From the NCBI GenBank assembly GCA_020881835.1, contig CP052876.1, positions 558,001 through 622,000 of the forward strand: a stretch of 64,000 nt of DNA, read 5' to 3'. The position numbers and the translations under genes were made by a program. Shown in pieces: positions 12,793 to 23,015 of the stretch. A model generated the notes under the pieces. It did not search any database and was not told the DNA's origin. It saw only the letters and a list, made by a program, of their open reading frames with translations. The DNA is from Kineosporiaceae bacterium SCSIO 59966 (GTDB taxonomy: Bacteria > Actinomycetota > Actinomycetes > Actinomycetales > SCSIO-59966). Each line of letters starts with the position of its first letter. The stretch's first letter is position 1.

Positions 12793-14381
12793 GTGCCACC
12801 CCAGAGGCCGACGGGCGCACCCCCGTGCGCCGCGCCCTGGTCAGCGTCTACGACAAGACCGGCCTGGAGGACCTCGTCACCGGCCTGCACGCCGCGGGCG
12901 TGACGATCGTGTCGACCGGGTCGACCGCCGCGCGGATCGCCGCCGCCGACGTCCCGGTGACCCCGGTGGAGGAGGTCACCGGCTTCCCCGAGTGCCTCGA
13001 CGGCCGGGTCAAGACCCTGCACCCGCGGATCCACGCCGGGATCCTCGCCGACCGGCGCAACCCCGGTCACGTCCAGGAGCTGGCCGACCTCGGCGTCGAG
13101 GCCTTCGACCTCGTCGTGGTCAACCTCTACCCGTTCCGGGAGACGGTGCACTCCGGCGCCGGCATCGAGGACGTCGTCGAGCAGATCGACATCGGCGGGC
13201 CGGCGATGGTCCGGGCCGCCGCCAAGAACCACGCCAACGTCGCCGTCGTCGTCGACCCCGGCGGGTACGACGACGTGCTCCGGCAGGTCCGCGACGGCGG
13301 GTTCGACCTGGCTGCCCGGCGCCGGCTCGCCGCCCGGGCCTTCGCGCACACCGCGGCCTACGACACCGCCGTCGCCCGCTGGTGCGCCGCCGAGCTCGCC
13401 GTCGACGAGGACTGGTGGCCCCCCTACGCGGGGATGGCGCTGGAGCGTGCCGACGTCCTGCGGTACGGGGAGAACCCGCACCAGAAGGGCGCCCTGTACG
13501 TCGACGTCGACGCCCCGGCCGGCGTCGCCCAGTCCACCCAGCTGCACGGCAAGGCGATGTCGTACAACAACTACGTCGACGCCGACGCCGCCGTGCGAGC
13601 CGCGTTCGACCACGAGCGGCCCGCCGTCGCGGTCATCAAGCACGCCAACCCGTGCGGTATCGCGGTCGCCGACGACGACGCGGCCGACCCGGTCGCCCAG
13701 GCCCACGCCCGCGCCCACGCCTGCGACCCGGTGTCGGCGTTCGGCGGCGTCGTCGCCGCCAACCGCCCGGTGACCGCCGGGATGGCCGCCCAGCTCGCCG
13801 ACGTGTTCACCGAGGTCGTCGTCGCCCCGTCGTTCACCGACGACGCGCTGCGCCTGCTGACCGCCCGCAAGAACGTCCGGCTGCTCGAGCTGCCCGAGGG
13901 GTACCGGCGCGACGAGGTGGAGTGGCGTCAGGTGTCCGGCGGGATGCTGGTCCAGGTCCGCGACGCCGTGGACGCCGCCGGCGACGACCCGGCCACGTGG
14001 CGGCTCGTCGCCGGTGACCCCGCGGACGACGCCACCCTCGCCGACCTCGCCTTCGCCTGGCGCGCCGTCCGCGCGGTGAAGTCGAACGCGATCCTGCTGG
14101 CCGCCGGCGGTGCGAGCGTCGGGATCGGGATGGGTCAGGTCAACCGGGTGGACTCCTGCCGGCTGGCCGTCGAGCGGGCCGGCGCCGAGCGGGCCCGCGG
14201 CGCCGTCGCCGCCTCCGACGCGTTCTTTCCCTTCCCCGACGGGTTGCAGGTGCTCATCGACGCGGGGGTGCGGGCCGTCGTCCAGCCCGGCGGGTCGGTG
14301 CGCGACGAGGAGGTCGTCGCCGCGGCCCGCGAGGCCGGGGTCACGATGTACCTCACCGGCACCCGGCACTTCGCGCACTGA
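12789..14381 (+). CDS. purH: Bifunctional AICAR transformylase / IMP cyclohydrolase
   Basis: 530 residues catalysing the last two steps of IMP synthesis. The N-terminal MGS-like cyclohydrolase domain has [38 protein letters not shown] and VNLYPF. The C-terminal transformylase domain has [13 protein letters not shown], the KH motif in [10 protein letters not shown] and DPVSAFGG, and ends with [12 protein letters not shown] and GTRHFAH. Length and motifs are complete. Overlaps purN (ATGA), so the two are one operon using the 10-formyl-THF pool that FolD, GlyA and PurU balance further along. Confidence 0.96.
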
Positions 14382-14411
14382 CTGTGCCGACGCCGGCCAG
14401 GGACGAGTGAG

Positions 14412-15650
14412 TCAGCCGCGCAGCGCGGCCCGCACCGGGACGTCCGGGTCGCCCAGCGCCGCGGTGTCCACGGGCACCCCGGTGCCGTCCGCGCCGCCGA
14501 GCGCCCGGCGGGCCTGCGCGACGTCCCGGGGACGGTCCACGGTGAGCAGCGCCACCAGCCGGTCCTGCCCGGCGGTGTCGGCCAGCACCCACGCCGCGGC
14601 GAAGCCCTCACCGGCCGCCGGCTCACCGCGCACGAGCACCCTGGCCCCGGCGTGCGGGCGGCCGGCCAGCGCCACCTCCCGCCCGAACTGGGTGGAGAAC
14701 ACGTACGGCACCGGGTCGTGGACGACGTCCTCACCGGCCAGCGTCGCCGCCGCGGCGTCACCGGCGAGCATCGCCTCCTCCCAGTGCCCGCCGGCGACCC
14801 AGCGGTCGTAGCGCGGCGACCAGCGCACCGCGCAGTCACCGGCGGCGAGCACGTGCGGCGCCAGCGGACCGACCGCGCGCAGGTCGGCGCCCACCTCGAC
14901 GCCGTGAGCGCCCGAGCCCAGCCAGCCGGCGTCCGGCAGCACGCCGAGCGCGGCCACCACCGCGTCCGCCACCAGCTCCTCCCCGTCGTCCAGGACCACC
15001 CGCTCCCCGGTGGCGGACACCACCCGGCGCCCGGTGAGCAGCTGTACGCCGGCGGCGGCGTACCAGGGGCGGGTGAGGTCCCCCACGGTGCCGATCTCGC
15101 GGCCCAGCGGGGTGGGCAGCGCCTCGACCACGGTGACCTGGCAGCCGACGGCGGCCGCGGAGGAGGCGACCTCCGCGCCGATCCAGCCGGCGCCGGCGAC
15201 GACCAGCCGGGCACCGGGCACGAGCGCTGCGCGCAGCCGCGCCGCGTCGTCGAGCGTCCGCAGCACGAGCACCCCGTCCCAGCCGGCGGGCACGACCGGG
15301 CGGGCGCCGGTGGTCACCAGGACGGCGTCGGCCGGCTCGTCCCACCCCTCGCCGCGGATGACGACCCCGGAGGCGTCGACGTCCAGGCCGGTGACGCGGT
15401 GGTCGAGCAGCAGTTCGTCGCACAGGACGTCGAGGTCCTCCCCGAGGTCGTCCTCCAGCCGCGTGGTGTGCCCGCCGGTGAGCACCGCCTTGGACAGCGG
15501 GGGCCGGTCGTACGGGCGGTGCGGCTCGGCGCCGACCATCACCAGGTGGCCGTCGAACCCGCGGCGGCGCAGGCCGGCGACGGCGTAGGTCCCGGCGAGC
15601 CCGGCACCCACGACGAGCACGCTGTCGGGGCGGCGTCCAGGGCTGGGCAC
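14412..15650 (-). CDS. FAD-dependent NAD(P)-linked ferredoxin-type reductase
   Basis: 412-residue pyridine-nucleotide-disulfide-class flavoprotein of the rubredoxin/ferredoxin reductase type. FAD-binding VLVVGAGLAGTYAVAGLRRRG is at about 14-34, PYDRPPLSKAVL is typical of ferredoxin reductases, NAD-binding LVVAGAGWIGAEVASSAA follows and the second FAD motif is HVLAAGDCA. A C-terminal reductase domain completes it. No CxxxxC pair is seen, so it passes electrons to a one-electron carrier; no ferredoxin or P450 gene is adjacent to name the partner. GTG 15650 lies 7 bases after TAGCGT. Confidence 0.88.
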   Translation of the reverse strand: MPSPGRRPDSVLVVGAGLAGTYAVAGLRRRGFDGHLVMVGAEPHRPYDRPPLSKAVLTGGHTTRLEDDLGEDLDVLCDELLLDHRVTGLDVDASGVVIRGEGWDEPADAVLVTTGARPVVPAGWDGVLVLRTLDDAARLRAALVPGARLVVAGAGWIGAEVASSAAAVGCQVTVVEALPTPLGREIGTVGDLTRPWYAAAGVQLLTGRRVVSATGERVVLDDGEELVADAVVAALGVLPDAGWLGSGAHGVEVGADLRAVGPLAPHVLAAGDCAVRWSPRYDRWVAGGHWEEAMLAGDAAAATLAGEDVVHDPVPYVFSTQFGREVALAGRPHAGARVLVRGEPAAGEGFAAAWVLADTAGQDRLVALLTVDRPRDVAQARRALGGADGTGVPVDTAALGDPDVPVRAALRG

Positions 15651-15657
15651 GGCCGCA

Positions 15658-15667
15658 ACGCTAACCT
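15658..15667. promoter_or_regulatory. Overlapping divergent -10 boxes of two leaderless genes
   Basis: On the minus strand TAGCGT (15658-15663) sits 7 bases before GTG 15650. On the plus strand TAACCT (15662-15667) sits 6 bases before GTG 15674. The two hexamers share positions 15662-15663, so a single 24-base start-to-start gap must serve both genes. Confidence 0.65.
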
Positions 15668-15673
15668 CCGGCC

Positions 15674-16012
15674 GTGCCCGACACGACTCCCGCCCCCGAC
15701 CGGGGGCCGGGCACGGGACCCCACCGGGGGCCGGGCACCGGACCCGACCGGCTGGACCGGCTGAGTCGGCTGGTCGTCGTCCTCGTCGGGGCCGCGGTCG
15801 TCGTCCCGGTCCTCCTCCTGCCGGTGCTGGGCTTCCGCGGGTCCTCGCTGCTGCTGGCCGGCGAGCTGCTCGGGGCCGCCGCGGCACGGGCGCTGCTGCC
15901 CGCGCGGGCGGTGGCCCCGCTCGTGGTGCGGACCCGAACCCTCGACGTGCTGGTGCTCGTGGTGCTCGCCGTGCTGCTCGCGGTGCTCGCGGCGACGGCC
16001 CCCGGCGGCTGA
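15674..16012 (+). CDS. DUF3017 family small membrane protein
   Basis: 112 residues: a Pro/Gly/Asp-rich N-terminus of about 30 residues, then three hydrophobic helices (LVVVLVGAAVVVPVLLLPVL, LLLAGELLGAAAARALL, VLVLVVLAVLLAVLAATA). Size and topology fit DUF3017, an actinobacterial family often next to purH/folD/mdh. GTG 15674 is decided by the -10 box 6 bases upstream. Function not known. Convergent with mdh, whose stop is 13 bases on. Confidence 0.7.
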   Translation: MPDTTPAPDRGPGTGPHRGPGTGPDRLDRLSRLVVVLVGAAVVVPVLLLPVLGFRGSSLLLAGELLGAAAARALLPARAVAPLVVRTRTLDVLVLVVLAVLLAVLAATAPGG

Positions 16013-16024
16013 GCGGGGCGTGCC

Positions 16025-17026
<1,002 letters not shown>

Positions 17027-22134: not shown

Positions 22135-23015
22135 CTGCGAGAGTCCTCGACGGCAAGGCCACCGCGGCCACCATCAAGGCCGAGCTCGCGCAGCGGGTGA
22201 GCGCCCTGCGGGAGCGGGGCATCGAGCCCGGTCTGGCCACCGTGCTCGTCGGCGACGACCCGGGCAGCCGCTCCTACGTGGCCGGCAAGCACCGGGACTG
22301 CGCGGAGGTCGGGATCGCCTCGATCCGGGTCGACCTGCCTGCTGACGCCTCCCAGCAGGACGTCGAGGACGCCGTCCGGCGGCTCAACGAGGACCCGGCC
22401 TGCACCGGGTACATCGTCCAGCTGCCGCTGCCTCGCGGCCTGGACAGCCAGCGGGTGCTCGAGCTGATGGACCCGGCCAAGGACGCCGACGGGCTGCACC
22501 CGACCAACCTCGGGCGGCTCGTGCTGCGGGTGGCGGGACCGCTGGACTCCCCGTTGCCGTGCACCCCGCGCGGGATCGTCGAGCTGCTCGGCCGGCACGG
22601 TGTGGCCCTGGCCGGTGCCCGGGTGTGCGTCATCGGCCGCGGCGTCACCGTCGGCCGGCCGCTCGGCCTGCTGCTGACCCGCAAGGACGTCAACGCCACG
22701 GTCACCTTGTGCCACACCGGAACTCGGGACGTCGCCGAGCACACCCGCGGCGCGGACGTCGTCGTCGCGGCCGCCGGGGTGCCCGGGATGCTCACCGCGG
22801 ACATGGTGCGCCCCGGCGCCGCCGTCCTCGACGTCGGCATCACCCGGGTCGTCGACGAGCAGACCGGCAAGGCGCGGCTCGTCGGGGACGTGGACCCTGG
22901 CGTGCACGACGTCGCCGCCTGGGTGGCGCCGATGCCGGGCGGCGTCGGGCCGATGACCCGGGCGATGCTGCTCGCCAACGTCGTGGAGGCGGCCGAGCGA
23001 GTTCAGCCGGCTTAG
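22131..23015 (+). CDS. folD: Methylene-THF dehydrogenase / methenyl-THF cyclohydrolase
   Basis: 294-residue bifunctional enzyme making 10-formyl-THF from methylene-THF for PurN and PurH. The catalytic Tyr-Lys region [10 protein letters not shown] is at about residue 45-54, with [18 protein letters not shown] and the NADP site [26 protein letters not shown] closes the protein. GTG 22131 overlaps the glyA stop (GTGA). The 3' end overlaps the convergent M20 peptidase gene by four bases (TTAG). Confidence 0.95.

Follow-up and report, generated by a model that had tools for sequence, protein, structure and literature searches.

How can two divergent genes be transcribed when 23 bp separate their start codons? 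This question is raised by a locus in the window, the whole 64,000-nt stretch of DNA analysed here, where the gene for a FAD/NAD(P) ferredoxin-reductase-like oxidoreductase and the gene for a small DUF3017 protein are read away from each other (Table 1). The first-pass annotation had placed two overlapping leaderless-type -10 hexamers in the gap and had read them as a compact bidirectional promoter linking both genes by mutual exclusion. Our analysis suggests that the reductase/DUF3017 core is a constitutive bidirectional promoter, presumably served by the housekeeping sigma factor, that would yield two leaderless mRNAs and accommodate one polymerase at a time. We assign this reading a probability of about 0.85.

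Table 1. Coordinates of genes, promoter elements and related sites. Unprefixed positions refer to the window.
Feature	Position	Strand	Details
FAD/NAD(P) ferredoxin-reductase-like oxidoreductase gene	14412..15650	-	412 aa; GTG start, leaderless-type; PF07992 (1e-41), PF14759 (4.3e-11)
DUF3017 small-protein gene	15674..16012	+	112 aa; GTG start, leaderless-type; PF11222 (2.2e-8, exceeds curated cut-off)
Candidate bidirectional promoter core ANNNTANNNT (ACGCTAACCT)	15658..15667	both	head-to-head -10 hexamers, common TA at 15662-15663; read directly
Reductase -10 hexamer TAGCGT (ACGCTA on + strand)	15658..15663	-	7 nt upstream of GTG
DUF3017 -10 hexamer TAACCT	15662..15667	+	6 nt upstream of GTG 15674-15676
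Perfect 11-bp inverted repeat GGGCACGGCCG / CGGCCGTGCCC	15645-15655 / 15669-15679	both	over both start codons; not noted in the first-pass annotation
Composite site L075, clpS/pncB	G000:C1:2159668-2159696		divergent housekeeping pair
Composite site L076, ispH/xseA	G000:C1:2444632-2444659		divergent housekeeping pair

Gene context of the divergent pair

Pfam matches bore out the proposed identity of both genes (Table 1). The reductase has PDB relatives 6tuk, 1d7y and 1q1r, and the N-terminus of the DUF3017 protein carries a short tandem repeat, RGPGTGPH RGPGTGPD, encoded at 15700-15745. None of the papers covered by the literature search names DUF3017. Across positions 12793-17023 the genes are ordered purH> <reductase DUF3017> <mdh, so that the divergent pair lies between purH and mdh, which both point towards it across convergent gaps of some 30 and 12 bp; purH also adjoins the reductase in many orthologues. 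A folD gene (PF02882) lies on the plus strand at 22497-23000, about 6.5 kb further along and not beside purH. Because neither the reductase nor the DUF3017 gene has a co-directional gene directly upstream, a local promoter is likely. The gene order also permits a transcript across the opposite gene, as in a non-contiguous operon, and no terminator-like sites were found at or near the convergent junctions; read-through from purH or mdh across the opposite gene, with long antisense transcription, is therefore possible.

Two -10 hexamers share one TA step

On the plus strand, the GTG start codon of the reductase reads as CAC at 15648-15650. The two hexamers overlap by exactly 2 bp (T15662, A15663), and the distance from one start codon to the other is 24 bp, start to start. 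The overlap, the spacings of 7 and 6 nt to the GTGs and the 24-base distance agree to the letter with what the first-pass annotation had reported. TAGCGT and TAACCT thus share bases in the manner of shared -10 bidirectional promoters, and each is a TANNNT hexamer at leaderless distance (6-8 nt) from its start codon. No usable Shine-Dalgarno sequence was found on the plus strand within the 23-bp gap, nor on the minus strand, where the sole GGAGG ends 14 nt before the GTG, upstream of the predicted start site. The region contained no classical -35/-10 promoters and gave no match to known RNA families.

Genome-wide leaderless signature

Leaderless statistics were obtained from a 464-kb sample of the genome, made up of the window and 20 stretches of 20 kb, and were complemented by a pattern search of the whole genome. 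In the sample, TANNNT preceded a candidate start of called genes in 18, 31 and 21 cases at gaps of 6, 7 and 8 nt, compared with about 2 cases per gap elsewhere (background about 2/357). In about 20% of called genes the start codon has a TANNNT upstream at a gap of exactly 6-8 nt, and by this distance criterion about one gene in five would be leaderless. The gaps of the reductase (7) and of the DUF3017 gene (6) fall inside this 6-8 nt peak.

We then considered the composite pattern CAY-N6-7-ANNNTANNNT-N6-7-RTG. The whole 3.1-Mb genome held 3 matches, all between genuine divergent genes (reductase/DUF3017, clpS/pncB and ispH/xseA), and the reversed-pattern control held none. This count comes from the whole-genome search and is independent of the sample, which deliberately included both other composite sites and whose 3 matches do not represent a density. 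TANNNT is a loose motif, and two such strings might meet by coincidence in a GC-rich genome; the probability of this is practically negligible, as an order-3 Markov simulation of about 2.8 Mb yielded no composite site and the arrangement is kept in 54 orthologues. The orthologue comparison had in itself already refuted coincidence. In lower-GC relatives, composite counts were weakly above the reversed control, and for this reason the conservation argument is based on orthologous loci rather than on raw counts.

Conservation of both hexamers in orthologues

A scan of genome contigs with the reductase gave distant relatives only; the orthologues came from a separate genome search, which provided 110 reductase loci across the order, drawn from families other than that of the window. 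One of these (L037) escaped the automatic pass and was taken from an earlier comparison. A TANNNT hexamer preceded the reductase start in all 110 loci, at a gap of 6-7 nt in 109 and of 8 nt in one. In 54 of them the TA of this hexamer serves at the same time as the beginning of a plus-strand TANNNT directed towards DUF3017, usually within the core ACGGTAGTCT, and the hexamer at this place reads TAGTCT, TAGCCT, TAGTGT, TAACCT or TAGGCT. In the other 56 the hexamers do not overlap. The shared state was found in 1/1 loci of family f1, 18/19 of f2, 35/72 of f8, 0/16 of f13 and 0/2 of f18. A conserved -35 element was absent in either direction in the orthologue comparison. Since the loci are related, their number overstates the independent support.

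Downstream of the core, a DUF3017-like frame was detected in 52/53 shared loci (E < 1e-5) with a profile built from these same sequences. Pfam agreed for most of the DUF3017 loci checked; some fell just under the cut-off and one (L028) was undetected. The DUF3017 starts derive from stop-to-stop profile matches and are unreliable at several loci; for that reason only the hexamers were used to score the shared and separate states. Another plus-strand TANNNT within 50 bp was present in 1/53 shared loci, compared with 36/56 separate loci (Fisher p = 2.6e-13, a descriptive value given that the sequences are related). As a rule, DUF3017 has a -10 of its own in separate loci, and where this lies near, the distance between the starts is mostly about 33-67 bp. 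This complementarity is the strongest evidence suggesting that the shared hexamer is a working DUF3017 promoter.

The same data bear on whether the reductase hexamer alone works, the plus-strand TANNNT being a by-product and DUF3017 being transcribed by read-through that comes from purH and runs antisense to the reductase gene, as in a non-contiguous operon. The universality of the reductase hexamer, the sharing of the plus hexamer in half of the loci and the lack of a terminator-like site at the convergent junctions would fit this explanation. We nevertheless regard it as quite improbable: a separate plus-strand TANNNT usually appears when the shared one is absent, the TAGNCT-like form of the plus hexamers is kept in both states, and in the window the DUF3017 start lies at leaderless distance.

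The conserved 10-mer could also be the operator of a transcription factor instead of two -10s. In favour of this, conservation in ACGGTAGTCT extends to its N positions, beyond what TANNNT requires, and in the window the core is flanked by the inverted repeat. This possibility is very remote, given that the 10-mer is not palindromic, that its spacing to the starts fits the genome-wide leaderless peak and that the repeat occurs in the window but in none of the orthologues. The repeat itself was ruled out as an operator by this restriction. Inverted-repeat arms of at least 11 bp occur in about 0.5% of 60-bp segments of the window, and the repeat is probably incidental.

On a tree of the loci, the shared/separate state changed about 14 times, compared with about 37 with shuffled labels; the tree was built from about 115 N-terminal residues and has low resolution, so that the figure of 14 is approximate. 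Switching between both states thus appears to have happened several times. Taken together, the comparative evidence backs the proposal of the first-pass annotation that two leaderless-type -10s form a compact bidirectional promoter.

Translation mode of DUF3017

At shared loci, the DUF3017 start lay 5-9 nt past the hexamer in 27/53 cases, followed a short Shine-Dalgarno leader in 20/53 and showed neither arrangement in 6/53. At loci L025, L027, L033, L036, L041, L047, L069 and L091-L093 the core is preserved, and DUF3017 is preceded by a short leader that contains a GGGAGG-like Shine-Dalgarno sequence. There, the translation mode of DUF3017 appears to have switched under a constant promoter. 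Because 20/53 shared loci carry such a leader, the trait that these sequences indicate as conserved is the promoter core and not double leaderlessness.

Recurrence at other gene pairs

Hexamer sharing at the two other composite sites was also found in other families, namely f1, f7, f10, f16 and f18 for ispH/xseA, and f1, f16 and f17 for clpS/pncB. The design therefore recurs at unrelated gene pairs. A wider proposal is that one type of regulatory unit keeps recurring in high-GC Actinobacteria: at several conserved pairs (reductase/DUF3017, ispH/xseA and clpS/pncB), a single TA step would connect two genes, in many cases both leaderless, with a spacing of 22-26 bp selected because the choice of direction couples outputs or limits noise. 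We advance it tentatively and consider it doubtful.

Proposed mechanism of initiation

In the proposed mechanism, the first two bases (TA) of both -10s in the 10-bp core ANNNTANNNT would constitute one base-pair step, read on opposite strands. In standard -10 numbering, the -12T and -11A of each promoter pair with the -11A and -12T of the other. Melting would begin at the same TA step whichever the orientation, and sigma region 2 could open the DNA either way. Transcription starting 7-8 nt past each hexamer would begin at the first base of each GTG, so that both mRNAs are predicted to be leaderless. The footprint of RNA polymerase far exceeds 24 bp. With so short a distance between the predicted starts, occupancy by one polymerase at a time would be near certain, and the direction would be picked at each binding event. 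Ordinary occupancy would probably just set the ratio of the two transcripts, with real competition arising only under strong activation of one direction.

The mutual exclusion claimed by the first-pass annotation held in part. Physical exclusion is what the geometry predicts. The stronger form, in which the overlap acts as a regulatory switch that persists because reductase and DUF3017 transcription suppress each other through competing polymerases, seems unlikely to us. It would accord with the fact that two polymerases cannot fit on starts 24 bp apart, with the phylogenetic conservation of the shared state, and with the finding that E. coli bidirectional promoters, when strongly activated in one direction, are repressed in the opposite one (PMC12825309). 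However, the same study reported no measurable competition at basal bidirectional promoters, the overlap was lost or never present in half of the orthologues (56/110), and neither an activator site nor a regulator gene could be recognised. In addition, split versions, with their wider start spacing, should still clash sterically, and hence hexamer overlap would not be what creates exclusion. The overlap thus appears dispensable, and mutual exclusion of reductase and DUF3017 transcription is only partly supported: it is physically reasonable, whereas any regulatory role would be conjectural.

Relation to known promoters

Bidirectional promoters have been defined by divergent start sites 7-25 bp apart (PMC10268837), the range expected when -10s on the two strands overlap, with a spacing of 18 bp being the commonest and 10 and 23 bp also common (PMC12825309, PMC10268837). 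The locus resembles the shared -10 promoters of E. coli and Salmonella in its overlapping -10s on opposite strands; its 24-bp start-codon spacing fits the published range and stands next to the 23-bp class, with the qualification that start sites were mapped there, whereas here they are predicted from the leaderless signature. It differs from them in belonging to a high-GC actinobacterium, in using loose TANNNT hexamers rather than TATAAT-like -10s, and in that both window products would be leaderless.

In Actinobacteria and Deinococcus, leaderless genes are marked by a TANNNT placed about 6-8 nt upstream of the start codon (PMC3160421, PMC3898074, PMC12340547), and M. tuberculosis promoters lack a conserved -35 (PMC3898074). 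The TANNNT gap and the absence of both a Shine-Dalgarno sequence and a conserved -35 are common to these genes and to the locus described here, where, unlike in ordinary leaderless TANNNT genes, two of them meet head to head in a common TA. A partial parallel is offered by M. tuberculosis prpD and Rv1129c, which are divergent neighbours with two leaderless mRNAs (PMC3898074). One of those genes encodes a regulator, whereas neither product of our pair looks regulatory, and hexamer sharing is not described in the passages of that source considered here.

The reductase/DUF3017 promoter is, on this comparison, a conserved case combining two known kinds, the shared -10 bidirectional promoter and the leaderless TANNNT gene. 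With 23 bp between the start codons, it forms a complete promoter pair of very small size, and its comparative support is deep. As half of the orthologues have fused and half have split -10s, they offer matched natural promoters for the study of expression ratio, competition and noise. Experiments on -10 sharing have mostly used E. coli and Salmonella; these results indicate that in GC-rich Actinobacteria it occurs alongside leaderless expression.
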